From assembly GCA_030456405.1 (NCBI GenBank), contig JAKDNQ010000025.1:1-16526 (forward strand): a stretch of DNA of 16,526 nt. Direction: 5' to 3'. This stretch comes from Nitrospira sp. GTDB lineage: Bacteria; Nitrospirota; Nitrospiria; Nitrospirales; Nitrospiraceae. The notes under the pieces are model-generated. The model saw only the letters and a program-made list of their open reading frames with translations. It had not been told where the DNA came from and did not search any database. Made by a program: the position numbers and the translations under genes. This document shows, piece after piece, positions 77 through 16,188 of the stretch. Position 1 is the first letter of the stretch; each line of letters starts with the position of its first letter.

Positions 77-682
77 TCAGAGGTAGCGGTGATCGACGAC
101 CTTCCCGGTTTTGTCCAGCTCATAGAGCAGCGGCGCGCCGGTTGGAATATTCAACTCCAGTACTTGTTCTCGCGAGAGCTGCTCCAACTCCATGATCAGC
201 GCTCGTAAGCTATTTCCATGCGCTGCGACGAGGATTATGTCCCCCTTCAAGAGATAGGGCTTGATGGTCTGCTCATAGTAGGGCAACACTCGCTCTGCCG
301 TGTCTTTCAGGCTTTCTCCTCCCGGTGGTCGCACATCGTAACTGCGCCGCCAAATCTTGACCTGCTCATCGCCGTACTTCTTGGCTGTTTCCGCCTTGTT
401 CAATCCTTGAAGCTCGCCGTACATCCGTTCGTTGAGCGCCTTGTCCTTCCCGATGGGGATACCGGTTTGGCCGATGGTGTCGAGCACCAGTCGCAATGTC
501 TCATTCGCGCGGGCCAACACGGAGGTAAAGGCCCGGTCGAATGTGAAGGGGCGCAGTTTCTCGCCTGCGTCCTTCGCCTCCTGAATGCCGCGAGGAGAGA
601 GAGGCACATCGACCCATCCCGTGAAACGGTTCTCCAAGTTCCATTGCGATTCCCCGTGACGGAGCAAGATCAATCGAGCCAT
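77..682 (-). CDS. gpmA: 2,3-bisphosphoglycerate-dependent phosphoglycerate mutase (short form)
   Basis: Interconverts 3-phosphoglycerate and 2-phosphoglycerate in cytosolic glycolysis and gluconeogenesis, through a phosphohistidine primed by 2,3-bisphosphoglycerate. The histidine-phosphatase signature LLRHGES puts the phosphorylated histidine at residue 9. The substrate-site block [15 protein letters not shown] has the acid/base Glu at 85, WRRSYD lies at 111-116, and [10 protein letters not shown] supplies the second histidine at 155. At 201 residues it is shorter than the roughly 250-residue enterobacterial enzyme. The missing length is mainly in the loop after WRRSYD and at the C-terminus, as in other compact bacterial dPGMs. 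The ATG at 682 is supported by an AGAGG ribosome-binding site about 8 bases upstream. A promoter candidate lies at 734-761. It is transcribed alone, away from the unknown genes to its right. Confidence 0.95.
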
Positions 683-2670: not shown

Positions 2671-5600
2671 TCACCCCGCGCGTTTGCCGTCAGTGAAACT
2701 TCCGCTTGCGCTTCGCTGCCACACATAGTCATACACGCGACCTGCAAGTGTTTGGGCGTCCTCGTCCGTGAACGGAGGGCGCGGGAGCGATTGCCACAGG
2801 TTATCGAGGATGAACATCTTCACTTCAGCCTGAGTGGCAGTATTCTGGGTCCAGCTCGGCATAGGCTTCAGTAGCTCTTGTAGCGTGGCAAGCAGATTCT
2901 TGCTGGCTTGCTTCAGCTTCTCTCGATCAATCTTGCTGATGCGGTCTCTCGAAAGCAGATCGAACAACGCCAACTCGTCGTCGCCCAAGCCCTCTTCGGC
3001 AGCACGCTTCTGTTCGGCATCGAGGCCGGTGGCTAATTCGACGAGCCTGGCAAACGTCTCCTCCACTGTTATGCGATCCTTCTCACGGTTATAGTCGGCG
3101 ATGATGTCCTGATATTTCTTGTAGTAATCCATCCGCATCGGATGGCGGGCGAGCATTTGCTGGAGCTTTTTCTCGACAAGGTCGCGGACATCCTGAAGTG
3201 CCGCGTGCTTCCGCTTCACATTCTTGGCAAACTCATCGCGCAATTTCGCAAAATCAATCCGGCTCAAGTCCACAGTCAGCCCATCTGCGTGGTCCTGGCC
3301 TGCACCCTGCGCCCTAATCGCCTCATTGACGATCTTGTGCAGCTCTTTGAGCAGCTCCGTCACGTCGGCGGTATCGCGCTTCTCCTGCAGCTTCTTGTAG
3401 ATCGCCTCGATGTTGTCGTGCCGCTCGGCATAGGCGAAGACGCTCGGCTCCATCAACAATGTCTTAAACCGGATGAAGACTTGCCGAGCCATGATTTCAA
3501 AGCGACGCTTCGTCTCGTCGGAAGTGTACAGCGCGTCCACCGCGTCGCGCAGCGCCTGGATGCGGGTAAAGCCCTTGGCTCCAGCAAGCCGAGACGAATC
3601 GAAGCGCAAACCTTTCAGATGGTTTTCCGCTGCTTCGATCGCCTCCGCAAGCATCTGCACCAACTCTTCGAGCTGCGCGACGATGTCGCCACCGTCTCCG
3701 CCATCGTCCTCATCACCGATGGCATATTGAGCAAGCGCCTCACGCAGGCTCTTGAGCATGCCGTTATAGTCCACGATCAAGCCGCAGTCCTTGCCTGGAT
3801 AGACGCGGTTGGCGCGGGCGATGGCCTGCATCAGGGTGTGGGCCTTCATCGGCTTATCGATGTAGAGGGTCGAGAGACATTCCACGTCGAAGCCGGTCAG
3901 CCACATGGCGCAGACGATGGCGATGCGGAACGGGTGCTCCGGGTCCTTGAAGGCGTCCTCCACGGCTACCCGTTTGCCATCGGGCGTCTGGAAGCCGGTC
4001 TTCATGACGACGCGATGCGGGATGATATCGAAGTTCCATCGCTGGAAGTCGCGCACCTCGTTCTGCGCTTCGCTGATGATGATCTCGATGATCGCGCTGT
4101 CCATCCACTTGGCCTGCCCACGCAAACGCTCCAGAACCTTGGCGAGCCGTTCCCGTTCGTCCTCATTCGACGTAGCAGACAGCTCCGCTTCCTTCTTCGG
4201 TATAAGAGCCTTCACCTCTGCAAGCGTAAACTGCCAGCGGGTCTCGATGCGTTGCAACATTCGGGCACACGTCACCTTATCGATACACACGAACATCGAT
4301 TTGCCGGTCTCCCAACGAGTTGAGCAATGCTCCACGAAATCGTTGGCCAGCTTGTCCAGCCGGTCGTCAGCGGTGATGACTTCATAGTCTTTCCCGAGCA
4401 GATTCTCTAGGAGCGCGGTCTGATCTGGGTCGAGCTCCGCCTCCTCAATCTTCGCGGCGATGCGATCGTTCAGATCCAGTCGCGCAATGCCGAGCTTCTC
4501 GCCCCGGCTCTCGTAGACCAGTTTCACCGTAGAGTGGTCTTCCTCGGAGCGTTTGAAGTCGTAGCGCGAGATGTAGCCCCCGAAGATCCGGCGGGTCAGC
4601 TCGTCATGCTTAAAGAGCGGCGTACCGGTGAAGCCAATGAACGAAGCGTTCGGCAGTGCCAGCCGCATGTTCCGCGCGAACTTGCCCGCCTGGGTCCGGT
4701 GCGCTTCGTCCGAGATCACGATGATGTCGTCGCGCTCGCTGTAGGGCCCGGTGACCGGCTGATTGAACTTGTGAATCAAGCTGAAGACGAACCGGTGATT
4801 CCCGCGCAGGATCATCTGGAGTTCCTTGCCCGAACTGGCACGCGGGGTCTTCTCGTCCGATACGCCGCAGCCGATGAAGGTGCGCCAAATCTGGTCATCC
4901 AGGTCCTCCCGGTCGGTCATCACCAGGAAGGTGAAATTGCCTGGCACGACCCGGCGCACTTTCTCCGCAAAGAAAGCCATCGAGTAGGACTTTCCGCTCC
5001 CTTGCGTATGCCAGAAGACCCCGAGACGGCCCAGGTCCGTATGCGCTCGCTTAACTAGGGGCAATGCCTCATCGGTGTGGCTACTGACAACGAATTGTCC
5101 GACATCCTCTGTAGTCGCGTCGCTACTCTCTGCGGCCAACAGCAACTCGGACTTGAGGACCGTATAGGATACGAGACGCCGTTCCAGCGGAAACTCCCGC
5201 TTCAATTCCTCTTGCCGGACCACCGACCCGACCGCATTATTTACCCCCAGCACTTGATGATTGCGAGCGATGACCTTGCGCGTCCCGCCCGCGCGGCTGT
5301 CATCGAACAGGATGAAGTTTTCGATCACGTCGAGCAGGCGGTCCTTGGCCAACATCCCGTCGAGAAGCGCCTCAGCATCCACCCGGCCCTTGTCTTTTTC
5401 GCCGTTTCGTTTCCACTCAACGAAGTGCTCCCACTTGCTGGTGATGGAGCCGTAGCGGGCCTTGTCGCCGTTGCTCACGACGAGAATTGCGTTATGGTGG
5501 AAGGCGTGGGCGATACTGTGCTCGTGCAGGTAGTCGGTGAGGTTCTCATCGAACCCGGCGCGCCGGTTGTAGTGCGGCACCCGCACGCCCTGAAGCTTTA

Positions 5601-6081
5601 GTTCACGCACCGCCAGAAACCGGTTATTTCCGACGTGGCGAAAGTCGATAACGCGGGCTCGCCCATGCCGGGCCTCGCCCGACCCATCCCGCCATTCCAC
5701 GGGCACACCCCCACGGATGAAACCGTAATACTCCCGGTTGTGCTGCAAGAGCGAGCGAGCAAAATCGATACGCGTCAGCTTGTCGATGGCCTGTTCTCTA
5801 GCGGAGGCGGGAAGGTCGGGGTTCAGTCGCTCCAGAGCGAACCTCAGATCACGCACCAATACGACGTCCCGCTCAGACGTGCGCCCCAAGTCGCAGACCT
5901 CGCCCTCACCCCGCCCCTCTCCCGCTGGGAGAGGGTGATGCAAAGCATCGGGTGAGGGCGGAGGTGTGCCAAACACCTCAGTGTTGTAGGCATAGACATT
6001 TTCCCAGCCGAGCGTTTGTTCAAGGTGCTCGGCGAACGTCTGCTGAACCAGCCGATCTTCGCCGTTGATGTCGGTGATCAT
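2671..6081 (-). CDS. hsdR: Type I restriction enzyme R subunit (module A), nuclease motif apparently deleted
   Basis: HsdR proteins couple an N-terminal PD-(D/E)xK nuclease to an SF2 DNA-translocating ATPase. The motor is complete: Walker A HTQGSGKS at 358-365, DEAH at 458-461, FTGTP at 484-488, WLTGFDVE at 727-734 and motif VI QAIARANRVYPGK at 752-764. A helical C-terminal domain follows. In relatives as I recall them, a stretch containing Asp, the 'FVNGLPLV' strand and Glu-x-Lys lies between NRRA and GFDENL. Here NRRA (172-175) runs straight into GFDEN (176-180), so roughly 25 residues with the catalytic motif are absent. Residues 41-61 are encoded by a palindromic repeat inserted in frame. 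The ATG at 6081 overlaps the abiEii stop by 4 nt, so translation is probably coupled to the toxin gene. No hsdM or hsdS of its own is adjacent. The protein may be a nuclease-dead translocase or a decaying gene; its frame is intact over 1136 codons. Confidence 0.93.
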   Translation of the reverse strand: MITDINGEDRLVQQTFAEHLEQTLGWENVYAYNTEVFGTPPPSPDALHHPLPAGEGRGEGEVCDLGRTSERDVVLVRDLRFALERLNPDLPASAREQAIDKLTRIDFARSLLQHNREYYGFIRGGVPVEWRDGSGEARHGRARVIDFRHVGNNRFLAVRELKLQGVRVPHYNRRAGFDENLTDYLHEHSIAHAFHHNAILVVSNGDKARYGSITSKWEHFVEWKRNGEKDKGRVDAEALLDGMLAKDRLLDVIENFILFDDSRAGGTRKVIARNHQVLGVNNAVGSVVRQEELKREFPLERRLVSYTVLKSELLLAAESSDATTEDVGQFVVSSHTDEALPLVKRAHTDLGRLGVFWHTQGSGKSYSMAFFAEKVRRVVPGNFTFLVMTDREDLDDQIWRTFIGCGVSDEKTPRASSGKELQMILRGNHRFVFSLIHKFNQPVTGPYSERDDIIVISDEAHRTQAGKFARNMRLALPNASFIGFTGTPLFKHDELTRRIFGGYISRYDFKRSEEDHSTVKLVYESRGEKLGIARLDLNDRIAAKIEEAELDPDQTALLENLLGKDYEVITADDRLDKLANDFVEHCSTRWETGKSMFVCIDKVTCARMLQRIETRWQFTLAEVKALIPKKEAELSATSNEDERERLAKVLERLRGQAKWMDSAIIEIIISEAQNEVRDFQRWNFDIIPHRVVMKTGFQTPDGKRVAVEDAFKDPEHPFRIAIVCAMWLTGFDVECLSTLYIDKPMKAHTLMQAIARANRVYPGKDCGLIVDYNGMLKSLREALAQYAIGDEDDGGDGGDIVAQLEELVQMLAEAIEAAENHLKGLRFDSSRLAGAKGFTRIQALRDAVDALYTSDETKRRFEIMARQVFIRFKTLLMEPSVFAYAERHDNIEAIYKKLQEKRDTADVTELLKELHKIVNEAIRAQGAGQDHADGLTVDLSRIDFAKLRDEFAKNVKRKHAALQDVRDLVEKKLQQMLARHPMRMDYYKKYQDIIADYNREKDRITVEETFARLVELATGLDAEQKRAAEEGLGDDELALFDLLSRDRISKIDREKLKQASKNLLATLQELLKPMPSWTQNTATQAEVKMFILDNLWQSLPRPPFTDEDAQTLAGRVYDYVWQRSASGSFTDGKRAG
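5901..5960. repeat. Three-armed palindromic repeat inside the hsdR coding sequence
   Basis: An exact 11-bp outer stem (5901-5911 with 5950-5960) encloses two hairpins. One is CCCTCTCCC/GGGAGAGGG (5915-5923 with 5927-5935, 3-base loop), the other GATGC/GCATC (5937-5941 with 5945-5949). The CCCTCACCCC...CCCTCTCCC core is a widespread interspersed repeat that, when translated, gives peptides such as HPLPAGEGRGEGE, exactly as seen here at HsdR residues 49-61. It lies between the conserved N-terminal helix (GWENVYAYNTEVFG) and the LGRTSERDVVLVRDLR block, so it appears to be an in-frame insertion of about 60-66 bases. Confidence 0.85.
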
Positions 6082-6974
6082 GTTCGTATGGCTCTCAAAG
6101 CGGATGCGACCTTGGACACGATCGAGAAAGCACGGTCGAGATCAAACGCCTCAAATTCCTTGGCTCGCAGAACGGTCTTCAATCCCGGTTCTAGTTGTTT
6201 TTTGAGGGCATTCAATCGTTCTTCTGACACATCGATGGGCTCATTACCAGGAACCATGATCTTCCGCTCGACCATTTGCATCCATGGCCCCTCAGTTGGA
6301 TCGATCACGCCGTTTCCGACCGCGTAATCGATATCGAAGTAATCTCGGATCGCGGGTTCTCGCCGGGTCATGGCGGCTCGAAACTTTTCCGCCAAAGCTT
6401 CTCGCTTGTTGATGCAGGCGATCTGCACCGCGGGAATGAGCGGTTGCCCGGAAAGAGGATTCATCAGAATGGTCGCTGCACCCTGGGGCACAGCCGCATA
6501 GAGAAGCGGCTCTCGGAGGCTGATTTCGATCTTAATGGTTTCCCGATTGCGATGGATCATTGACTCATAACTGAAGCTGCCGATGTATTGCGTAGAATCG
6601 TTTGCGCCGCGCAGTGGTTCTGCTTTGCGAAATTCCGGTAACGCATCGACGAGATTGTCAAACATGCGTTTGACCGGTTCCATCTTGCGGCTGCGCTCAG
6701 CCCGTCGTGCATGGCTGGGCATAGGAACGGTAAAGTCCAGGTCTTCGCTCAGTCGGTAGAATCCGGCATGCACCTTTGTGAGACAGGTCCCGCCTTTGAA
6801 GACCAGTCCGGATGTGACCCCGCTGGAGAAATAGGCCAGCACGAGACTGCAAAAGTAGTCCTTCTCGATCAACGCCGGAACAAAGTCCTGTCGTGCAGCC
6901 GTGAAGGCGATGGCGTCCGCGAAAAACCTCATGTCGAGATGGTGCCGAATGGGCAAAGACTTAGGAGCGTCCAT
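6078..6974 (-). CDS. abiEii: AbiEii/AbiGii-family nucleotidyltransferase toxin
   Basis: Toxin of the type IV AbiE toxin-antitoxin system. Characterised members are polymerase-beta-like nucleotidyltransferases, and homologues such as MenT modify tRNA; they stop growth and can abort phage infection. Family motif I is seen as FKGGTCLTK (59-67) followed by RLSEDLDF (74-81), with D78 and D80 as the metal-binding acids. IEKDY (36-40), KREALAEKF (190-198) and RDYFDI (210-215) match the later conserved motifs. At 298 residues it is of normal length and shows no lesion. Its ATG at 6974 lies 14 nt inside the end of abiEi, with GGAG nine bases upstream. Its TGA overlaps the hsdR ATG. The antitoxin, toxin and HsdR-A therefore form a tightly coupled three-gene operon. 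The target RNA cannot be told from sequence. Confidence 0.92.
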   Translation of the reverse strand: MDAPKSLPIRHHLDMRFFADAIAFTAARQDFVPALIEKDYFCSLVLAYFSSGVTSGLVFKGGTCLTKVHAGFYRLSEDLDFTVPMPSHARRAERSRKMEPVKRMFDNLVDALPEFRKAEPLRGANDSTQYIGSFSYESMIHRNRETIKIEISLREPLLYAAVPQGAATILMNPLSGQPLIPAVQIACINKREALAEKFRAAMTRREPAIRDYFDIDYAVGNGVIDPTEGPWMQMVERKIMVPGNEPIDVSEERLNALKKQLEPGLKTVLRAKEFEAFDLDRAFSIVSKVASALRAIRT

Positions 6975-7761
6975 TGTCCACCACTCCCCATCGACGATTG
7001 ATGATCCCGCGCTTCGGCTTCGATGGAATCCAGGGAATCAGGCTGCGGGTCGGCTTCAACGCCCGTTCGAACCGTCGCAAGAGCGACGCGTCGATCGATT
7101 CACGTTCGAGCAAGTACCCCATGCGTCTGATTGTGCCGATGTCCCCGTACTTCAGCGTGACCTGCACCAGATCTTTCGCGATCACCCGCCGTTTTTTCAG
7201 ATCGGTACGAACCCAGTCATACGCGCGTGGGAGCGAACCGAAACGCGACCAGTCGTACACCGCATCGAGCAATGCACGCGCCCTGGATGAATAGACCGCG
7301 GTCTGACCGTCCGCTGTCATGATGTGTTCCGTGGCGCCAAGGCGTCGGTCCGCCACTTTGATCAAGGTGAGCTGAATCGGTCCGACCATCCGCTCACCGA
7401 AGAGCCGGTTGTTATAGGCATACACCCGATTGGGAACTTGATCATCGTACCCGTAGCGATTGAAGGCATTCGGACCGCAAATCTGATAGCGCCCTTTCAA
7501 CTCGCCGATCAGGGTATTGAGCGCAAGTATTTCGTCTGGCGACCAGATGCCGCCCAACGGCAGGCGTTGGGGGATAAGATACAGGCCACGGCGCACCTGT
7601 GCGATCATGCGGGCTTTCGAGAGCCGCGTGAAGAGCTTGCTCTCCTGCTTGCGGGAAATTCCGAGCGCTTTGGTCAAATCACCCGTTCTCAGGGTACTCA
7701 GATCCCGCATCTGAGCGTAGGCAAACAGCGTTCGTTCGAGATTTCCAAGGGTCTGTTTCAT
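6961..7761 (-). CDS. abiEi: AbiEi-family antitoxin and autorepressor
   Basis: Antitoxin of the AbiE pair. Known AbiEi proteins have an N-terminal winged-helix domain that represses their own promoter and a C-terminal domain needed for antitoxicity. Residues 1-65 fit the winged helix: LRTGDLTKALGISRKQESKL (24-43) forms the helix-turn-helix, and the wing ends in VRRGLYLIP (56-64). The core has the typical CGPNAFNRYGY (95-105) and NRVYAYNNR (111-119) segments. The C-terminus is strongly basic (KPTRSLIPWIPSKPKRG). At 266 residues it is full length. Upstream lie an inverted repeat and promoter that fit autoregulation. The ATG at 7761 has no good Shine-Dalgarno sequence; the GTGCAC arm of the operator occupies that place, so repressor binding and initiation sites are adjacent. 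It overlaps abiEii by 14 nt. Confidence 0.9.
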   Translation of the reverse strand: MKQTLGNLERTLFAYAQMRDLSTLRTGDLTKALGISRKQESKLFTRLSKARMIAQVRRGLYLIPQRLPLGGIWSPDEILALNTLIGELKGRYQICGPNAFNRYGYDDQVPNRVYAYNNRLFGERMVGPIQLTLIKVADRRLGATEHIMTADGQTAVYSSRARALLDAVYDWSRFGSLPRAYDWVRTDLKKRRVIAKDLVQVTLKYGDIGTIRRMGYLLERESIDASLLRRFERALKPTRSLIPWIPSKPKRGIINRRWGVVDNGRS

Positions 7762-7866: not shown

Positions 7867-8031
7867 TCACACCGCAATCTCGCCGCTCATCAGACGAGGC
7901 AGCAGCAGATTGCGGGCGGCGCGGAGTTTCTGATTTTGATGAAGCAAATTTTCGATTTGCTCAATTAGAAATTGTTCGAGCGCTGCATCGAGGTCGTCGA
8001 CGATTTCTTGGAAGATGAGGTTCGGTATGAT
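7867..8031 (-). pseudogene. 3' remnant of an hsdS specificity gene
   Basis: The minus strand from 8031 to a TGA at 7867 reads 54 codons ending LRAARNLLLPRLMSGEIAV. They are preceded by a leucine-rich coiled stretch (DDLDAALEQFLIEQIENLL). This is the hallmark C-terminal conserved helix and 'LLLPRLxSGEI' end of Type I HsdS subunits. The frame is closed upstream by TAG at 8032-8034, only 45 bases from the end of the module B hsdR. No target-recognition domain remains and there is no plausible start. It is not derived from the hsdS at 11473-12879, whose corresponding end reads RTRLIADVVTGKLDV. It probably marks a recombination scar between two restriction loci. The base composition is AT-richer than the flanking genes. 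Confidence 0.65.
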
Positions 8032-8078: not shown

Positions 8079-11000
8079 TTAGGGGTTAGCCTCTGGCTTG
8101 CGATACGTCACGTTAAAAATCGTGTCAGAGAGCCACTTTTTGAAGCTATCGTTATCCTGAAACTCCTTGAATAGCTGGGTGTGGTCCGAGAGCAAGTCCG
8201 TCATGACTTTTCGTAGCGCCTTGTCATGTTCGATGCGAGCGTTTTGTTTATCGGAATGCTGCCGGGCGTTTTGATAGGCGCTGTCGGCGGCAACCTTGGC
8301 AGGGATCTCTTCGGTAATCAGCTTGTGCACCCGATCCGAGTCAGTCCAGGGGATGTTGCCGAATTGGTCGTTGAAGGTCTTGAGGATATTGGAGAGCCGG
8401 TCGAGTTCAGGCTCCGGCTTATAGCCGCCACCAGTCGTCGGCACCGGCTCGATTTCCGCATCGGCATCGGGTAACTGGATCTTCATTGCCGCCTTCTTCT
8501 CGACACGATAACTATCCATATCAATCGCTTCGAGAATCCCCTTCGAGAGATCTTCCTCTTTTGGCGCCGGCAGCTTGGGCACAAGGAAGTTTAGGAAGAT
8601 CGACAGCTTCTCCCACTCGGCGTTGGTATAGGGCAGGATCGATGAGAGGAAGCCATAGGCACGCGTGAAGGCCTTGGCTTTACCCTTAAAGGCCACTTGC
8701 CCGTCCTCGTTGAGCTGTTCTTTATAGATCGCGACGCAGGCATCCAAAATTGGATCGAGCTTGTCCCGGTCGGCTCCGTCAAGGTATAGCGCAACAAGCT
8801 GGTCTATCTGCGCCACCGCATAGACTTGATATCCATCGAGTGCGGCTTTCAAATCATGCAGCTTGTTGGGATCGGTCTCTTCGGCAAGGATTGTCGTGCG
8901 GTAGTAGCCAGCAAATGCTTCCTGGATCATCGCGCTGTCGTTCATGAAGTCGAGCACGAACACATCGTGTTTCTGAGGATGAGCGCGATTGAGGCGCGAG
9001 AGTGTCTGCACCGCTTTGATGCCGGAGAGAATCTTGTCCACATACATCGTGTGGAGCAGCGGTTCGTCGTAGCCGGTCTGGAACTTATCGGCACAGATCA
9101 AGAACCGGTAGGGATCTTCTTGTATCTTGTCAACTATCTGGCTCGACGGAAAACCATTGAGCGACGCCTCGGTCACCTTCGAGCCGCCGTACTCATGTTC
9201 GCCCGAGAAGGCAACAATGGCTTTGTGCGGACTTTTGCGCTCGGTCAGATAGTCGCGGAAAGCGTGGTAGTACTGGATGGCCCGATCGATGCCGCTCGTC
9301 ACAACCATTGCGCGTGCCTGCCCACCAATCTTGTTCAGCGCCAGCACCTGTTCGTGGAAGTGATCCACCATGATCTCAGCCTTGAGCCGGATGGCATGGT
9401 CGTGGCTCTCCACATAACGGCGTAGTTTTTTCTTCGCGCGCTTCGTATCGAACTCCGGATCGGCTTCTACCTTCTTTATGAGCTTGTAGTAGCTATCGAC
9501 CGGCGTGTAGTGCTTGAGCACGTCCAGGATGAAGCCTTCTTGGATTGCCTGCTTCATCGTGTAGCTGTGGAACGGTTTGTGTTTCGTTTTTCCGCCTTCG
9601 GCGTATGGCTCTCCAAAGATTTCCAGCGTCTTGTTCTTCGGCGTAGCCGTAAAGGCAAAGTAGCTCGCATTCGGCAGGAGCTTCTTGGCCTCCATGATCC
9701 GGTTGATCTTGTCCTCAGTGGTTTCCTCATCCTCTTCGGCTCCAGCTTCCGAAAGGGCCATGCTGATCGCCGCCGAGGTCTTGCCGCCTTGGCTTGAGTG
9801 AGCCTCGTCGACGATGATCGCAAATCGTTGCCCCCGCTGATCGTTGCCTATCTCCTCCAGGATGAACGGAAACTTTTGCACCGTGGAGATGATGATCTTC
9901 TTGCCGCTCTCGATGAACTTCTTAAGATCGCCGGAGTGCTCCGCATGGCCGACAGTGGCGCCCACCTGGGCAAACTGTTTAATGGTGTCGCGTATTTGTT
10001 TGTCGAGAATCTTCCGATCGGTCACGACGATAATCGAGTCGAACACCGGCGCCTCGTCTTTGCGTAATCCGATGAGTTGATGGCCGAGCCAGGCGATCGA
10101 GTTCGATTTCCCGCTGCCCGCCGAATGCTGGATAAGATAGCGCAGGCCCGCGCCATGCTGACGCGCATCCGCTAAGAGCTTCCGCACCACATCGAGTTGG
10201 TGGTAGCGAGGCCAAATTTGCACGGCCTTCTTCTTGCCGGTCTTCTCGTTTCTCTCCTCGACCACCTGGGCGTAATTCTCGATGACGTCGGTCAGACTCT
10301 CGGGAATGAGGAATCGCTTCCACAGATAGTCGGTCTTGATCCCGTTCGGGTTCGGCGGGTTGCCTGCTCCGTCGTTCCAACCTTGATTGAAGGGAAGGAA
10401 CCACGAGCTTTTTCCCTTCAGATGAGTGCAGAACCGTACCTCGTGATCATCCACGGCGAAATGCACGACGCAGCGCCCGAATTCGAACAGCTTCTCTCGT
10501 GGGTCACGGTCGCGCTTGTATTGCTCCACCGCATCCTCGACGGTCTGTTTGGTCAGACTGTTCTTAAGCTCAAAGGTCGTGATCGGCAAGCCGTTGATGA
10601 AGAGACCAAGGTCTAAAGCGCACTGTGTTTCATCGCGACTGTAGCGAAGTTGCCGGGTAACACTAAATCGGTTAGCCTCGTAAAGCGCCTGTGCCTTTTC
10701 ATTGCCCGCTGATGGCGTGCCGAAGAACAGATCGATATGGTGAGGGCCGTCCTTCACACCGTGGCGGAGCACGTCGATGACACCGCGCTTGGAGACCTCC
10801 CCTTGGAGGCGAGCCAGAAATTTTCGCCTCGGAGGACCGTCATGTTCCAGATCAAGCGCCTCGGCAACCCGTGGTTGGGTCGTGCTTAGGAAAGTGCGGA
10901 GTTGAGTGAGATCGACGCAGAACTCACGGTCATAGTCTTGCGCCTGGCCAAGAATCCAACCTGCTCCGCCATACCGGGCCCGGATGAGCCCGATGCCTTC

Positions 11001-11090
11001 GCCCGACGGCGGCGGCTCGCTCGACGGTTGGCCGGTCATCGCCGCAATGATGAGGCTTTCAAGGCCCTTCTCGCTGGTGTCGGTGTTCAC
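8079..11090 (-). CDS. hsdR: Type I restriction enzyme R subunit (module B), motifs intact
   Basis: Restriction and translocation subunit expected to work with the HsdM and HsdS encoded upstream, cutting DNA that lacks their methylation. The nuclease motif is complete: D160, NG at 166-167 and E174-L-K176. The motor motifs are HSAGSGKS (322-329), DEAH (428-431) and FTATP (480-484), with QTGYDEP and QTLSRLNRAHPQK further on. At 1003 residues it has normal length. It starts at GTG 11090, preceded by AGAGG six bases upstream. It shares little with the module A HsdR outside the motor motifs, so the two are different subfamilies rather than recent duplicates. A 200-base gap with short repeats and a broken gene separates it from hsdS, unlike the 4-nt overlaps in the rest of the operon. 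A remnant hsdS end lies just after its stop. Confidence 0.95.
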   Translation of the reverse strand: MNTDTSEKGLESLIIAAMTGQPSSEPPPSGEGIGLIRARYGGAGWILGQAQDYDREFCVDLTQLRTFLSTTQPRVAEALDLEHDGPPRRKFLARLQGEVSKRGVIDVLRHGVKDGPHHIDLFFGTPSAGNEKAQALYEANRFSVTRQLRYSRDETQCALDLGLFINGLPITTFELKNSLTKQTVEDAVEQYKRDRDPREKLFEFGRCVVHFAVDDHEVRFCTHLKGKSSWFLPFNQGWNDGAGNPPNPNGIKTDYLWKRFLIPESLTDVIENYAQVVEERNEKTGKKKAVQIWPRYHQLDVVRKLLADARQHGAGLRYLIQHSAGSGKSNSIAWLGHQLIGLRKDEAPVFDSIIVVTDRKILDKQIRDTIKQFAQVGATVGHAEHSGDLKKFIESGKKIIISTVQKFPFILEEIGNDQRGQRFAIIVDEAHSSQGGKTSAAISMALSEAGAEEDEETTEDKINRIMEAKKLLPNASYFAFTATPKNKTLEIFGEPYAEGGKTKHKPFHSYTMKQAIQEGFILDVLKHYTPVDSYYKLIKKVEADPEFDTKRAKKKLRRYVESHDHAIRLKAEIMVDHFHEQVLALNKIGGQARAMVVTSGIDRAIQYYHAFRDYLTERKSPHKAIVAFSGEHEYGGSKVTEASLNGFPSSQIVDKIQEDPYRFLICADKFQTGYDEPLLHTMYVDKILSGIKAVQTLSRLNRAHPQKHDVFVLDFMNDSAMIQEAFAGYYRTTILAEETDPNKLHDLKAALDGYQVYAVAQIDQLVALYLDGADRDKLDPILDACVAIYKEQLNEDGQVAFKGKAKAFTRAYGFLSSILPYTNAEWEKLSIFLNFLVPKLPAPKEEDLSKGILEAIDMDSYRVEKKAAMKIQLPDADAEIEPVPTTGGGYKPEPELDRLSNILKTFNDQFGNIPWTDSDRVHKLITEEIPAKVAADSAYQNARQHSDKQNARIEHDKALRKVMTDLLSDHTQLFKEFQDNDSFKKWLSDTIFNVTYRKPEANP

Positions 11091-11299: not shown

Positions 11300-11476
11300 A
11301 TCTTCCTTGGCCAAAGAGACTGCCGCAGCCGCGTTCGCGAGCGCGGAGATGTACTCGCCGATCTCTGCGAGGTTCAAGTTGTTGGCCTTGAATTCGACCC
11401 ACTCGGTTTCACGAGGCAATGTGCATAGCTCGCGAACCAAATCAACGAGGTAGTCATTGGAACGATCAGCTGTCAC
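11291..11476 (-). pseudogene. Truncated Schlafen/AlbA_2-domain gene
   Basis: The 61 codons read MTADRSNDYLVDLVRELCTL, then PRETEWVEFKANN and IGEYISALANAAA. That is the start of the AlbA_2 (Schlafen-type) proteins often encoded inside Type I restriction operons as putative ATP-binding regulators, several hundred residues long. Here the frame stops 12 residues after the ALANAAA block. Shifting frame at that point gives SLFGQGRYCLMV, which resembles the expected next strand (family pattern L-x-G-K-x-x-x-Y-L-V-W-G), so a frameshift probably came first and deletion followed. No later part of the domain is found before hsdR. It starts at a GTG overlapping the hsdS stop by 4 nt, so the old coupling is preserved. 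A short peptide might still be made but would lack the rest of the domain. Confidence 0.65.
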
Positions 11477-12879
11477 GCCTCGGCCTCCTCGGGCACCGCG
11501 GCGGGGTCCGCGTCTTCGGTTTCTTCGTCACCCTCGGCAAAAGCCTCTGCGCCATCGAGTGGTTCGGGCTCATCAGTTTCTTCAGGCAGCTTGACGGCCG
11601 CTGCTCTCACGTCCAGCTTGCCGGTCACCACATCGGCGATCAGGCGGGTTCGGTATTCGCGAAGGAGGGCGATCTCACAGCGCACCTTGTCGGCAGTCGT
11701 GTCGACCTCCCTGGTCAGCCGTACGATTGCATCAGCAATCGCAGTCTGTTCGCTCGGTGGTGGATAGCACGATGGCATCCGCTTGAAGTCCTCCCAATAC
11801 AGCCGATTGCGATCCTTGACGATGCCTCGGGAATAGCCGTCCACCTCCGCCTTGTACTCGCTGGTCCTGAAGAGCTGTGCGAAGTACCTTGGGTCTGTGC
11901 CGAGAAGCGGTGTTGCCACAACGTAAGCGGGGCTGACTAATCCATCGACTGGCGCAACACCCACAGCCCCCTGCCACATTCGCATCATGTTGTAGGCGAT
12001 GTCGCCAGCACGAGATCGCTTGTACTTCTCTCGGTCCGTCATGACTTGCTTTCGGTCAGGATTTCCCAGATCACGAACCTGAACCCCTGTTCGAAGTGAG
12101 ACCTCGAGGATTGGAAGGTCGCCGAAACCAGTCTCATTTCGTTGTTTGAATAATCGCCCGTTGCGCCTCACCTCCCAATGCTCTGGCATGTCGCCGAGCC
12201 ATTCGACGCCCGAGGGCTTGAGGCGGACGTTGGGCATCGCCTGCCCTGAGCCTGCCTGCGGTGAGCCTGCCGAACCCGTCGAAGGGAGACCGCGAGTGAC
12301 GGCGCGGTGGATGGTGGCCTGCTTCTGCTCCTCCAGCAGTTTGATCAGTTTCTGCTTGGCACGGATGTAGCGACGAATGCGCCGGTCGGCATGTTCCAGA
12401 AAGCGGACGATGGCGGATTGTTCGCTCCGTTCCGCCGGGTATGCCGCCATGCGTCGGTATGCATCCTCTCGATCAAGGCCCGGCACTGCTGAGTCCTTGG
12501 ACACCTCATCGAGCCGCAGCCAGCTGAGAAGGAATGACAACCAGCGCACATCAGCGGCAGTGATGCGGCCATCGACATAGAACGTGGTATCGATTGCAAA
12601 AACGGGTTCGGCTGAGAAGTTCACTTTGCCGAAAGAGCCCTTGCGCCCAATCACGATACAAGGCGCCTTTGTATTCGACGACACATGCGAACCCACTCGC
12701 CCATTGGAGCCAAACACGGGCACCTCTCCGCAGTGCCGTGTTTCCGTTGGCAACGAATCGCCATAGTTGAAACGGCATATGTGCTTCAGCCGCCGTACCT
12801 GCCAATGCTCCGGCACCTCCCCCAGCCACGGCACGCCGGAGTCCTTCATCGCGGGATATGGCTTGAGGTCGGTGATCAT
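11473..12879 (-). CDS. hsdS: Type I restriction-modification specificity subunit
   Basis: Determines the DNA sequence recognised by the HsdM methyltransferase and the HsdR nuclease. It has the classic two-half layout, with two target-recognition domains of different sequence. The first follows WLGEVPEHWQVRRLK (18-32) and the second WLGDMPEHWEVRR (227-239). Each ends in a conserved helical spacer: SEQSAIVRFLEHADRRIRRY (152-171) and SEQTAIADAIVRLTREVDTT (376-395). Two half-sites and therefore a split recognition sequence are expected. Residues about 199-214 (PSTGSAGSPQAGSGQA) are encoded by a palindromic repeat in the central linker. The last 38 residues are very acidic (about 17 Asp/Glu). The ATG at 12879 overlaps the GIY-YIG stop by 4 nt, and its stop overlaps the GTG of the AlbA_2 relic. 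The frame is intact, so I take it to be functional. Confidence 0.93.
   Translation of the reverse strand: MITDLKPYPAMKDSGVPWLGEVPEHWQVRRLKHICRFNYGDSLPTETRHCGEVPVFGSNGRVGSHVSSNTKAPCIVIGRKGSFGKVNFSAEPVFAIDTTFYVDGRITAADVRWLSFLLSWLRLDEVSKDSAVPGLDREDAYRRMAAYPAERSEQSAIVRFLEHADRRIRRYIRAKQKLIKLLEEQKQATIHRAVTRGLPSTGSAGSPQAGSGQAMPNVRLKPSGVEWLGDMPEHWEVRRNGRLFKQRNETGFGDLPILEVSLRTGVQVRDLGNPDRKQVMTDREKYKRSRAGDIAYNMMRMWQGAVGVAPVDGLVSPAYVVATPLLGTDPRYFAQLFRTSEYKAEVDGYSRGIVKDRNRLYWEDFKRMPSCYPPPSEQTAIADAIVRLTREVDTTADKVRCEIALLREYRTRLIADVVTGKLDVRAAAVKLPEETDEPEPLDGAEAFAEGDEETEDADPAAVPEEAEA
12244..12287. repeat. Interspersed repeat inserted in the hsdS linker
   Basis: Read on the minus strand, the segment begins CCCTTCGACGGGTTCGGCAG and continues with AGGCTCA motifs. 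This is the widespread 'CCTTCGACAAGCTCAGG' type of interspersed repeat. TGAGCCTGCC occurs twice in direct orientation (12247-12256 and 12262-12271). It encodes the low-complexity peptide STGSAGSPQAGSGQ between the first-half helix and the second target-recognition domain, where HsdS proteins normally run from AVTRGL directly into NVRLKPSGVEWLG. Confidence 0.72.
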
Positions 12880-13295
12880 GTCCGCTCCCTTCCGTCATTC
12901 CCGCGCAAGCGGGAATCCAGGTTAGCCGAGAGTTTCTGGGTCCCCGCTTTCGCGGGGACGACGCACCCAGGGATCTTCCCGTTCAGGCGGGAATCCATCT
13001 CCTCGCTTTCCGTCAACGAACGCCAAAGGTCCTGCCATTGGGGATTAGTTCTTTCAATCAATTCGATCTTCCATGCCCGATTCCATTTCTTGACCTGCTT
13101 TTCACGACGGATGGCTTCGAGCATGTCGTCATGAAGCTCGAAATACACCAGAGAGCGAACACCGTAGCGCTTCGTAAACCCTTCGACGAGGTCGTTCCGA
13201 TGCTCCCAGATCCGTCTGACCAGGTCGCTCGTCACCCCCGTATACAATGTGCCATTGTGTCGGCTGGCCAACATGTAGACGGCAGGTTGCTTCAT
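12876..13295 (-). CDS. Small GIY-YIG nuclease-domain protein with repeat-encoded tail
   Basis: Single-domain GIY-YIG protein of the COG2827 (YhbQ-like) type, a predicted DNA endonuclease of unknown substrate. VYML (6-9) stands for GIY and LYTGVT (17-22) for YIG. The catalytic Arg lies at 27 or 28 (LVRRIWEH). AIRREKQVKKWNRAWKIELI (61-80) carries the metal-binding Glu and the Asn/Lys cluster. The domain ends near residue 97. Residues about 100-139 (from MDSRLNGKIP to DSRLRGNDGRERT) are the translation of palindromic repeats and are not conserved protein. The gene is coupled at both ends: its ATG overlaps the stop of the truncated DUF1016 gene and its TGA overlaps the hsdS ATG, each by 4 nt. GIY-YIG genes are not standard restriction-operon components; this one is bracketed by inverted repeats and looks inserted. 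Confidence 0.9.
   Translation of the reverse strand: MKQPAVYMLASRHNGTLYTGVTSDLVRRIWEHRNDLVEGFTKRYGVRSLVYFELHDDMLEAIRREKQVKKWNRAWKIELIERTNPQWQDLWRSLTESEEMDSRLNGKIPGCVVPAKAGTQKLSANLDSRLRGNDGRERT
12892..13000. repeat. Cluster of three palindromic repeats at the 3' end of the GIY-YIG gene
   Basis: Three hairpins follow one another. The first is ATTCCCGC-GCAA-GCGGGAAT (12897-12916), the second GTCCCCGC-TTTC-GCGGGGAC (12940-12959), and the third, degraded one TTCCCG-N6-CGGGAA (12976-12993). The first fits ATTCCC-N8-GGGAAT exactly, the consensus of the dRS3 repeats of Neisseria, which serve as prophage integration targets there. All three are translated as the tail of the GIY-YIG protein and end just before its stop. 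Confidence 0.88.
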
Positions 13296-13358
13296 GGGAA
13301 AAGGTCTGGATTCCCGATGGAGCCCGCCCTCGACCCCGCTCGGGGGCGGGAATGACGG
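12892..13358 (-). mobile_element. Candidate repeat-bounded GIY-YIG cassette
   Basis: A 467-bp unit made of one GIY-YIG gene between inverted repeats. The outer 12 bp, CCGTCATTCCCG (12892-12903), is exactly inverted at 13347-13358. The inner 11 bp (12910-12920) is exactly inverted at 13306-13316. It lies within a restriction operon, and the gene on its upstream side is cut off about 50 bases before its border. The arrangement resembles elements in which a nuclease or transposase gene travels with short palindromes, as RAYT/REP units do. I see no clear target-site duplication, and mobility is inference only. Confidence 0.35.
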
Positions 13359-14047
13359 GATTGTCGATCCGACGTCTCTCCTGGGCGCGCAACGCCGGAG
13401 TTTCTCAGCTGCCAGAGCAATCCGTCATGAAGATCGGCTTCGGCATGGCCATCGGGGAGATTGAGAAACTCGACCACGTAGCTGTCTTTGAAGAGGCTCT
13501 GCGCCGAGGGGTGCAACTGTCTCACCGCTGGTGAGACTTTCGTCGGGTTGAGCACGACACGTTCGAAGAGGGCGCCGCGCAATTGCCGCTCCAATTCGCG
13601 CTTCCCCCACTGTTCACGAGCAGCTATGCGAAGGTAGAACTCTCGCTCCGCGGCAATCTTGCATTGGCTTAGAATGATCAGATTGTGAGTCCAGGGCAAT
13701 TGTCGCACCAGTGGTACGACTTTCTTATGCATACGGTAGGTATCATAGAACTGCCTCATCCTAAACAAGTTGGCCCGCGTGAACCCGCGCAAGCCCGGTT
13801 GGGTGCGTGCGAGATAACGGGCCAATTCCTCCACCACCCCATCGCCCCATTCTGCAGACTTCAGCTTACGACTGATGTACTCACCGATCTGCCAATACAG
13901 ACTGACCAGTTCCTGGTTCACCGCCTGGTATGTCCGCTGCTTGGCGGCCTGAATCATGCCGACGATTGCGGCAAAGGAGGCCTCGACTGGAGCCGATGCG
14001 ATAGCATTCCCCGCAACGTTCTTCCGTTTCCGGAGCGGCTTCTTCAC
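13292..14047 (-). pseudogene. DUF1016/YhcG-family gene truncated before its nuclease domain
   Basis: Full-length proteins of this family (about 340-380 residues) have an N-terminal DUF1016 domain and a C-terminal PD-(D/E)xK nuclease. Residues 25-215 match the N-terminal part well: VNQELVSLYWQIGEYISRKL (43-62), GFTRANLFRMRQFYDTY (88-104), LPWTHNLIILSQCK (117-130), REFYLRIAAREQWGKRELERQ (about 135-155), and FKDSYVVEFLNLPDGHAEAD (186-205) followed by LHDGLLWQLR. That last block is where the nuclease domain should begin. Instead the frame runs through about 12 unrelated residues and then through a palindromic repeat, to stop at 251 inside the ATG of the GIY-YIG gene. The nuclease domain is therefore lost and is not found elsewhere in the window. 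The ATG at 14047 overlaps the hsdM stop by 4 nt. A shortened protein could still be made. Confidence 0.8.
13305..13360. repeat. Inverted copy of the ATTCCC-type repeat at the 5' end of the GIY-YIG gene
   Basis: CTGGATTCCCG (13306-13316) and CGGGAATGACGG (13347-13358) are the two arms of a larger palindrome. Its loop is GC-rich and itself partly paired (CCCGCC at 13323-13328 with GGCGGG at 13345-13350). The arms are exact reverse complements of the arms of the first repeat at 12892-12920, so the gene sits between repeats in opposite orientation. The repeat is translated in frame as the tail of the truncated DUF1016 protein (QSRHSRPRAGSRAGSIGNPD). Confidence 0.75.
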
Positions 14048-16188
14048 GCCGGACCTCCACCGACGATCTCACCGAGTAGCCCTTCTGTCTCTTTCTCAAG
14101 GGCGAGGATGTCGGCGCGAATCTCCTCTAGCGTGCGCAGCGGCTGTGGCTTATAGAAGTAGCGAGTGAAACTGATCTCGTATCCCGTCTTGACGCTTTCA
14201 GAGTTGTACCAGGCGTCAGGGACGTGGGGTAGGACTTCGCGGCGAAGAAAGGTCTCGATGCCACCCTCTTCCAGCAACGGGATCTGTTCAGTGTCTCGCA
14301 GCTCGCTGTCAGGCTCGTACTCGACCACGCAAGGTTTGCCATCAAGCTTGACCTCGAAGAGGCCACACAACGGGTTTGGCTTAGTCTTGACCGGCTTGTG
14401 GATCTTGCTGATGACTTCGACGGCCGTCTCGTCTCGCTTCGCCAGTCGATCCTTTAGCAATTTCTTCCGTGCGGCCGTCAGTTTGAGGCTATGCTTCTCC
14501 GCATCAGCCTCAACCGCGTCCATGAAGAGATTGAAATTCAGGTGAGGCCCGGGACCGAGTATTCCGGCGACACGATCCACCGCGTTGGCCATCGGAGCCT
14601 CGTCGTCTTCATCGCATGCCACGCGAAATGCGGAGAGCGACATCGTGTCCAAGTCCACTCGTAGACGCAGCGGCCGTTCGACGGTGACCTTCCAGTAGCC
14701 AAAAGTGGCGTTGGGGAAAATCTTCGACTGCTCGGTCTCTTTAAAATCCAGGAAGGTTTGGCAGATGCGCTGGATATCCTCCTCAGACAGCTCGCAGTTC
14801 TTTTTGCCGAGGTTTTTGCGAAGCGGCTTGAACCATTGCGTCGCGTCGATGAGTTGAACCTTGCCCTTGCGATGCTCGGGCTTCCGATTCGTCAGCACCC
14901 AGATATAGGTCGCGATGCCCGTGTTGTAAAACATGTTCAGCGGCAGGGCGACGATGGCCTCCAGCCAGTCGCTCTCGATGATCCAGCGCCGAATGTTGCT
15001 TTCGCCCTGGCCTGCGTCGCCGGTGAACAGCGACGAACCGTTATGCACTTCGGCAATACGGCTCCCGAGCTTGGTCTTGTGCTTCATCTTCGAGAGCATG
15101 TTCGCAAGGAACAACAGCTGGCCATCGCTCGAACGGGTGATCAGCGAGTACTCGGCATCGCCTGTATGTTGGATGACGAACCGCGGATCCTTGAGGCCGT
15201 CTTTACCGCCCAGACGTTCAAGGTCACTCTTCCAGCTCTTGCCATAGGGTGGATTGGAAAGCATAAAGTCGAACTCACGGGATGGGAAAGCATCGTTCGA
15301 AAGCGTGGAATGCTCCGGCCCGCCGACGATGTTGTCCGCCGCTTCGCCTTCGCCTTTCAGCAGAAGGTCGGCCTTGGCGATGGCATACGTCTCCGCATTG
15401 ATCTCCTGCCCGTAGAGATGCGTAGACACCTTCTTCTTATGTACAATTGCAAGTTGTTGGAGTGTTTCCTCGCCAACCGTGAGCATGCCGCCTGTGCCAC
15501 AGGCGCCGTCGTACAGAAGATAGGTACCGGATTCGATCTTTTCTGCAATAGGCAGGAAAATGAGCTTCGCCATGAGCTTGACGGCATCGCGCGGCGTCCA
15601 GTGTTCACCAGCCTCCTCGTTGTTCTCTTCGTTGAAGCGGCGGACTAGTTCCTCAAAGATCGTTCCCATGGCGTGGTTATCGAGGCCAGGATGCTTGACC
15701 GAACCGTCATGATTCAGGACCGGGTTGGGGCTCAGGTTGATGTCGGAGGAAAGGAGCTTCTCAATCAGCGTATAGAGAGCATCCGCCTTGGATAGACGCG
15801 GAATCTGATTGCGGAATTCAAACTTCTCAAGAATGTCCTGCACGTTCGGCGAGAACCCATCGAGGTACGCCTCAAAGTCAGCTCTAAGCTGCTGCTGGTT
15901 GGTACGAGATTTGAAATCGCGCAACGTGAACTTCGAAGTATTGTAGAAGGCCTGTCCGGCGGCTTTGCGCAATGGCTGGTCCTGGTGGACGATCTTGGCC
16001 TTGTCGAGCGACTTTTTCATGTCGAGCACGGCTTTCTTCGTCGGCTCAAGCAAAGCGTCGAGACGGCGCAGGACGGTCATAGGAAGGATCACATCGCGGT
16101 ATTTACCTCGCACATACAGGTCGCGGAGTACATCGTCAGCGATGCCCCAGATGAAGTTGGCAATCCAGTTGAGATCCCCGTTGCTCAT
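14044..16188 (-). CDS. hsdM: Type I restriction-modification DNA methyltransferase subunit
   Basis: Adenine-N6 methyltransferase subunit that, with HsdS, protects host sites and forms the core of the restriction complex. An N-terminal helical domain (about 1-170) contains the family's LRRLDALLEPTK (40-51). The catalytic domain starts at GEHWTPRDAVKLM (194-206). Motif I, which binds S-adenosylmethionine, is DGACGTGG at 227-234; GQEIN (260-264) follows; catalytic motif IV is NPPYG at 312-316. At 714 residues it is longer than the roughly 500-residue HsdM of E. coli. The C-terminal third (from about 500) matches the extended M subunits with an extra helical end. It is the first gene of the operon. 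The ATG at 16188 has only a weak GGAA ribosome-binding site. The stop overlaps the next gene by 4 nt. No lesion is seen. Confidence 0.96.
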   Translation of the reverse strand: MSNGDLNWIANFIWGIADDVLRDLYVRGKYRDVILPMTVLRRLDALLEPTKKAVLDMKKSLDKAKIVHQDQPLRKAAGQAFYNTSKFTLRDFKSRTNQQQLRADFEAYLDGFSPNVQDILEKFEFRNQIPRLSKADALYTLIEKLLSSDINLSPNPVLNHDGSVKHPGLDNHAMGTIFEELVRRFNEENNEEAGEHWTPRDAVKLMAKLIFLPIAEKIESGTYLLYDGACGTGGMLTVGEETLQQLAIVHKKKVSTHLYGQEINAETYAIAKADLLLKGEGEAADNIVGGPEHSTLSNDAFPSREFDFMLSNPPYGKSWKSDLERLGGKDGLKDPRFVIQHTGDAEYSLITRSSDGQLLFLANMLSKMKHKTKLGSRIAEVHNGSSLFTGDAGQGESNIRRWIIESDWLEAIVALPLNMFYNTGIATYIWVLTNRKPEHRKGKVQLIDATQWFKPLRKNLGKKNCELSEEDIQRICQTFLDFKETEQSKIFPNATFGYWKVTVERPLRLRVDLDTMSLSAFRVACDEDDEAPMANAVDRVAGILGPGPHLNFNLFMDAVEADAEKHSLKLTAARKKLLKDRLAKRDETAVEVISKIHKPVKTKPNPLCGLFEVKLDGKPCVVEYEPDSELRDTEQIPLLEEGGIETFLRREVLPHVPDAWYNSESVKTGYEISFTRYFYKPQPLRTLEEIRADILALEKETEGLLGEIVGGGPA

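Follow-up and report, generated by a model that had tools for sequence, protein, structure and literature searches.

An R subunit of a type I restriction system in Nitrospira that is predicted to have lost its nuclease active site by an in-frame deletion

According to PMC3874165, the PD-(D/E)xK nuclease of HsdR, the R subunit of the type I restriction enzyme EcoR124I, has its catalytic site at D151, E165, and K167. Mutants of this triad are described in a second paper (PMC2602864). The D151A, E165H, and K167A mutants did not cleave DNA in vitro, while E165A and E165D retained a slow partial cleavage. Translocation was kept by all triad mutants, with mean rates that were reduced except for K167A, and the ATPase activity of the point mutants was 0.25–0.63 of the wild type. 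In a non-restricting host, the mutants lowered phage plating to 0.1–0.3, compared to 0.001 for the wild type. In a restricting host, the plating efficiency was 0.9 for D151A, 1.0 for E165H and K167A, 0.2 for E165A, and 0.6 for E165D. Here, a stretch of 16,526 nucleotides from Nitrospira sp. was analyzed (contig JAKDNQ010000025.1 of assembly GCA_030456405.1; called the window). It contains the probable remains of a type I system (module A) with an R subunit, HsdR-A, that lacks 25 residues at the site of the nuclease.

The original prediction, which had been made from the sequence without searches, was that the NRRA motif of HsdR-A (residues 172–175) is followed directly by GFDEN. The translation confirmed this reading, because residues 170–181 are HYNRRA and then immediately GFDENL. 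An alignment with close homologues had been proposed as a check, and HsdR-A was therefore aligned using MAFFT with the best 120 homologues listed, which are 87% to 75% identical. A gap of exactly 25 columns follows A175, and the block is occupied in all 120 homologues. No other deletion of at least two columns occurs in HsdR-A at sites that are occupied in more than half of the relatives. At the place of the junction, the relatives read NRRAD...NGLP...ELK...NIRAGFDENL, which is the layout that the original prediction had given for them, with NRRA, the block, and a second xIRAGFDENL. In the DNA, the break point lies at window position 5556/5557, within the predicted range (5541–5620), and a single CGCGCCG is kept there (Table 1).

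The missing block carries the catalytic residues. In the closest relative, P0001, these are D154, E168, and K170, which are each invariant in the 120 homologues and align to D151, E165, and K167 of EcoR124I HsdR. The predicted in-frame loss of about 25 codons together with the triad was thus borne out to the residue. In accordance, the HSDR_N profile scored only 55.9 bits with HsdR-A compared to 132.3, 122.3, and 131.6 bits with P0001, P0002, and P0003, and the match stopped at position 122 of the 198 profile positions. As judged from its sequence, HsdR-A is without a complete PD-(D/E)xK triad, and it is predicted to be unable to cut DNA. The remainder of the protein is present, as had also been noted: more than 1100 codons are open, the SWI2/SNF2 motor domain was recognized (PF18766, 214.9 bits), and six conserved stretches, which we take to be the motor motifs, are all found. 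The score of HsdR-A with the TIGR00348 hsdR model was 390.6 bits, well above the curated cut-off of 284.55.

The original prediction had also considered that D146, E160, and K162 might form a true alternative triad, and HsdR-A would in that case still cut DNA. The three residues are indeed conserved in the relatives, E160 in 120 of 120 and both D146 and K162 in 118 of 120. However, they coexist there with the true triad, they correspond to D125, Q139, and E141 of EcoR124I HsdR in the alignment, and the position of K162 is occupied by T, Q, E, and V in the more distant loci L018, L030, L052, and L059. Because they are present alongside the true triad and K162 varies in distant relatives, D146/E160/K162 are very unlikely to be a replacement site, and cleavage by this route is regarded as extremely improbable. 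Structure prediction with AlphaFold2 yielded a mean pLDDT of 48.9 for HsdR-A (33 alignment rows) and of 50.1 for the intact control P0001 (32 rows), with values below 50 for most of the nuclease region in both cases; the underlying alignments were too shallow, as they included 32 of the 120 homologues listed, each of which is a close relative.

Close homologues sharing the short junction, which the original prediction had named as evidence that would speak against it if they were active nucleases, were looked for in two protein searches. The junction was present in none of the 194 listed homologues, all of which carry the block. The block pattern fits 191 of them, and the other three, which were read by eye, have an altered preceding residue. 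A search with this region found 1887 of 1900 candidate proteins at E ≤ 0.001, and intact P0001 was the best match; the best 120 of the 1887 were listed, and the protein set was clustered at 90%, which could hide a near-identical deleted copy. At the level of genomic loci (136 examined), D, E, and K were present in 104 of the 105 that match this part of P0001, a count that includes overlapping records of one place. In the remaining locus, L065, the contig has its start downstream of the block. Among viral contigs, none matched the back-translated junction pattern exactly, and the search for junction carriers among plasmid records led to 1983 records with a match, all below 60% identity. No report of a natural in-frame loss of the HsdR triad was recognized among the papers listed in a literature search.

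The loss of the nuclease block is not the only defect of module A. In the intact relatives L001, L004, and L124, the genes are encoded on a single strand in the order hsdM, hsdS, abiEi, abiEii, and hsdR. No hsdM-A was found by homology search within the window, and hsdS-A is reduced to a stub, which is 77% identical over 30 amino acids to HsdS of L001 (E 1.9e-8) and 70% identical over 33 amino acids to HsdS of L004 (E 1.7e-8; both tblastn). Its distance to abiEi is 105 bp, compared to 116 bp in L001. Within the window, HsdR-A is thus not accompanied by a cognate HsdM and HsdS. The two abi genes are adjacent and were recognized by PADLOC with E values of 2e-21 for AbiEi and 4.7e-30 for AbiEii, and Pfam yielded a match for AbiEii (1.9e-24) and none for AbiEi. 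AbiE matches precede the hsdR-A homologue in 5 of 80 genome loci (L001, L003, L004, L009, and L064), and some of the other 75 loci are cut by contig ends.

These results also bear on the possibility that the junction is an artefact of assembly or strain mixture and that the living cell has an intact hsdR-A. This would be in line with the intact state of all 120 close relatives at the junction site, but the frame is kept, both flanks match the relatives, and the hsdS stub and the missing hsdM point independently to real decay. In addition, assemblers in common use are not misled by repeats as short as about 7 bp, and an artefact is therefore considered quite improbable.

The fate of module A was followed in a survey of 175 genomes of the family, which is taken to be the Nitrospiraceae. 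AbiEi was matched in 16 of them, in 11 cases with at least 58% over nearly the whole length, and the surroundings were inspected for all 11 (loci L001, L119–L124, L133, L134, L114, and L116). M, S, and R are whole in only two genomes, G001 and G107. R is broken in four: it is in pieces in G004, G051, and G037, and only a fragment of it is left in G083. The same four genomes have an M gene that is broken, internally deleted, or fragmentary. In three further genomes (G002, G117, and G056), no M-A, S-A, or R-A is present within the stretch examined, and in the last two (G014 and G017) the contigs are too short for judging, with an R frame in G014 that ends after 81 codons. In contrast to these genes, AbiEi is a single open reading frame in all 11 loci and AbiEii in 9, the exceptions being two pieces in G117 and a gene cut by the contig end in G017. 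This would be suggestive, but only suggestive, of an AbiE pair that outlasts the surrounding type I genes in the family. The presence of AbiEi was the condition for entry into the survey, frameshifts in metagenome assemblies can be sequencing errors, and M, S, and R offer larger targets than the AbiE genes, which all weaken the pattern. In addition, AbiEii is split over two frames at L093, a second place in G014, contrary to the pattern.

Taken together, HsdR-A is probably the R subunit of a type I system in decay, orphaned and without a working nuclease, and we estimate the probability of this explanation at roughly 70%. The system hsdM-hsdS-abiEi-abiEii-hsdR would be falling apart, with M and S replaced or lost and module B, a second type I system, upstream. 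Without its own M2S in cis, HsdR-A would probably not be recruited to sites, and module A would not restrict. The AbiEi/AbiEii pair may persist alone as a type IV toxin-antitoxin system. The loss of the nuclease would be recent, as the remainder of HsdR-A is normally conserved.

The mechanism originally proposed for the loss was a deletion via short direct repeats. In locus L002, CGCGCCG is present at both ends of the block, 75 bp apart. Exact repeats of 7–8 bp at a spacing of 75 were found in 13 of 78 distinct intact relatives (distinct sequences from genomic loci with a block of the same length). The repeats are 7 bp long in five and 8 bp in eight of them, all 13 pairs sit at two codon pairs for RA, and 11 of the 13 contain CGCGCCG. 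The block might have been removed by slippage or recombination, with a short CGCGCCG-like repeat at either RA-coding end as the substrate. Since the repeats are R-A codons in the same frame, such a deletion would necessarily be in frame, and preservation of the frame is thus weak evidence for selection. The proposed mechanism is plausible in view of the 13 relatives, but the nearest relatives with DNA (L001, L120, and L124) have only a 4-bp repeat, and a longer repeat in the window's own ancestor has to be assumed.

Apart from these last two points, several results weigh against a decaying system. All 1136 codons of the reading frame are open, the abiEii stop overlaps with its start, and both indels in HsdR-A, the deletion and an N-terminal insertion, are in frame, whereas the broken relatives have split reading frames. 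Of the 413 columns in which 120 or more of the 121 sequences agree, HsdR-A has a private change in one (mean per sequence 0.89, rank 24 of 121), and it departs at 7 of 656 columns with at least 95% identity (median 8). There is thus no clear sign of relaxed selection at conserved columns outside the two indels. A cognate M2S is possibly encoded outside the window. Lastly, the residual plating drop of the EcoR124I triad mutants (0.1–0.3) makes the absence of restriction uncertain from the triad alone.

The relative-rate counts (HsdR-A/P0001) were close to even with P0003 (33/36) and P0004 (33/34) as third sequence and somewhat higher for HsdR-A with P0005 (35/27), P0008 (37/29), and P0011 (30/26). 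With P0002 they were 56/26, but P0002 is 90% identical to P0001 and hence an unfair outgroup. By region (residues 1–300, 346–800, and 800–1136), the counts were 16/12, 5/4, and 10/7 with P0003, a slight excess for HsdR-A that was read as non-significant, and 14/8, 6/5, and 13/10 with P0002. A rough arithmetic indicates that about one third of neutral replacements would strike the 413 columns, and fewer than about 13 have likely accumulated. Either the loss of the block is recent or the motor is still constrained, and the data do not separate the two. A recent loss is favored in view of the missing partners and the visibly broken state of four relatives.

A constrained motor would fit a rather unlikely alternative, namely that HsdR-A is kept for its motor, either to translocate DNA or to hold back, as a dominant-negative subunit, a matching type I enzyme that is encoded elsewhere in the genome. 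The presence of the motifs, the uneroded conserved sites, and the two in-frame indels are compatible with such a role. Furthermore, as described in PMC2602864, translocation persists in the EcoR124I triad mutants, mostly at a reduced rate, and restriction is nearly or fully abolished by three of the five when they are expressed in a restricting host. However, an in-frame deletion is expected anyway with repeats at two RA codon pairs, 25 residues have been lost and not just one, and even the point mutants described there have an ATPase of only 0.25–0.63 of the wild type. A partner is also missing in the window, where a cognate M is absent and S is reduced to a stub, and the proteins of module B are of another class. 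The original suggestion of a translocase or sensor role, for which the protein would be kept, found no support, given that hsdM-A is not in the window, that hsdS-A is a 33-codon stub, and that hsdR is broken in four relatives; retention of the protein as such is compatible with the motor motifs and the uneroded conserved sites. A more far-reaching scenario is distinctly unlikely. It would hold that a nuclease-deleted HsdR motor was kept with an intact AbiE pair after methylase loss and serves as a non-cutting motor or dominant-negative regulator, AbiE being the part that selection holds while restriction genes come and go. Either role would need a cognate M2S elsewhere in the genome.

Table 1. 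Features of modules A and B in the window
Feature	Position	Strand	Remarks
hsdR-A, type I restriction R subunit	2671..6081	-	1136 codons, open; motor and C-terminal domain matches; nuclease core missing
Deletion junction	5556..5562	-	single CGCGCCG; 25 codons of relatives missing between residues 175 and 176
Query-only stretch, residues 39–64	5890..5967	-	net +22 amino acids; palindromic sequence at about 5901–5960
AbiEii-like nucleotidyltransferase gene	6078..6974	-	298 amino acids, open; stop overlaps hsdR-A start; Pfam PF08843, PADLOC
AbiEi-like gene	6961..7761	-	266 amino acids, open; PADLOC; 82% to L001
hsdS-A remnant	7867..7968	-	last 33 codons and stop; tblastn
hsdR-B	8079..11090	-	nuclease motif NGLP...FELK present; 84% to L119
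hsdS-B	11473..12879	-	domain search and PADLOC
hsdM-B	14044..16188	-	88% to L119 HsdM; 21–32% to HsdM of hsdR-A loci

The second in-frame event, which the original prediction had not mentioned, is the insertion in the N-terminal part of HsdR-A, where residues 39–64 replace four residues of the relatives and are found in none of the 120. The 96 nt from 5885 to 5980 include a three-armed palindrome (5901–5960) and were predicted to fold as RNA with −59.9 kcal/mol, compared to −39.4 for shuffled sequences (z −5.2). A loosened pattern, CCCTCTCCC...GGGAGAGG, was also found among the 136 loci in L008, L028, L033, L050, and one region of G135 (L135/L136). No second copy of the palindrome was recognized in the window (among 20 of 44 direct repeat families and 25 of 34 inverted pairs). 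The insertion thus appears to be an in-frame palindromic sequence of a kind that occurs in unrelated loci. It was also considered whether the palindrome is a common repeat of the host genus, but this found no support, because a stricter pattern occurs in a single one (G135, at two places) of the 32 genomes from the genus of G138. The gpmA gene of the window (77–682) is 95% identical to G138 and G141, of the family of the Nitrospira metagenome-assembled genome with locus L001; in the same 32 genomes, no listed match to hsdR-A of more than 100 residues exceeds 46% identity. By eye, residues 300–345 of HsdR-A are nearer to P0003 than to P0001, which suggests a possible recombination within the family.

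Module B lies directly upstream of module A and encodes HsdM, a truncated DUF1016 protein, a GIY-YIG protein, HsdS, and HsdR-B, with hsdM, hsdS, and hsdR all open. Its proteins belong to another class than those of module A, because the HsdM identity is only 21–32% and the domain search gave no T1RH-like_C match for HsdR-B, unlike for HsdR-A. In G002 (L119), a module B-like system (HsdM 88%, HsdR-B 84%) is followed, about 1.4 kb away, by AbiEi (85%) and AbiEii (63%), while HsdR-A is not present beside them. Module B and AbiE of G002 and module A of G001 may occupy the same chromosomal site. By eye, an SbcD-like gene lies downstream in both L119 (13350–17600) and L001 (13455–15764), with a gene resembling those for sigma factors in the vicinity.

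The DUF1016/YhcG-like protein of module B (13292–14047, minus strand) has only an N-terminal domain match and runs into repeat-like sequence, and the open reading frame for the GIY-YIG protein (12876–13295, minus strand) comes after it. In a distant relative (L119 7544–8665, 30% identical), the YhcG_C PDDEXK nuclease domain is present in addition, and the island thus seems to be without a nuclease part in a second gene as well. The GIY-YIG frame carries another repeat-like sequence at its 3′ end (12893–12962), which is 76% identical over 70 bp to L121 8620–8689, and 27 bp of it are 96% identical to L121 19167–19193.

HsdR-A would represent a clean natural case of a restriction subunit that has lost only its cutting site. 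It is also a warning that a long open hsdR above the TIGR00348 cut-off can be counted as active when it is probably inactive, and it adds to the small and still weak pattern, from one family, of an AbiE pair outlasting type I genes. Compared to known systems, the nuclease and motor stretches of HsdR-A align in the same order with HsdR of EcoR124I (PDB 2w00, 4beb, and others), but HsdR-A is without the block and has a T1RH-like_C match and an N-terminal insertion. The D151A, E165H, and K167A mutants of EcoR124I resemble HsdR-A in that the same catalytic residues are affected and the motor motifs are kept. However, they are point changes made in the laboratory and were studied with M2S, whereas HsdR-A has a natural loss of 25 residues and no partners in cis. 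A close natural counterpart is L001, with AbiEi 82%, AbiEii 63%, and HsdR-A 74% identical and in the same order as in the window. L001, L004, and L124 have the complete set hsdM-hsdS-abiEi-abiEii-hsdR, and the window lacks hsdM-A, most of hsdS-A, and the nuclease block. As in type IV toxin-antitoxin systems of the AbiE type, the models for AbiEi and AbiEii are both matched; the pair in the window differs in that it sits between the remnant of a type I hsdS and hsdR.

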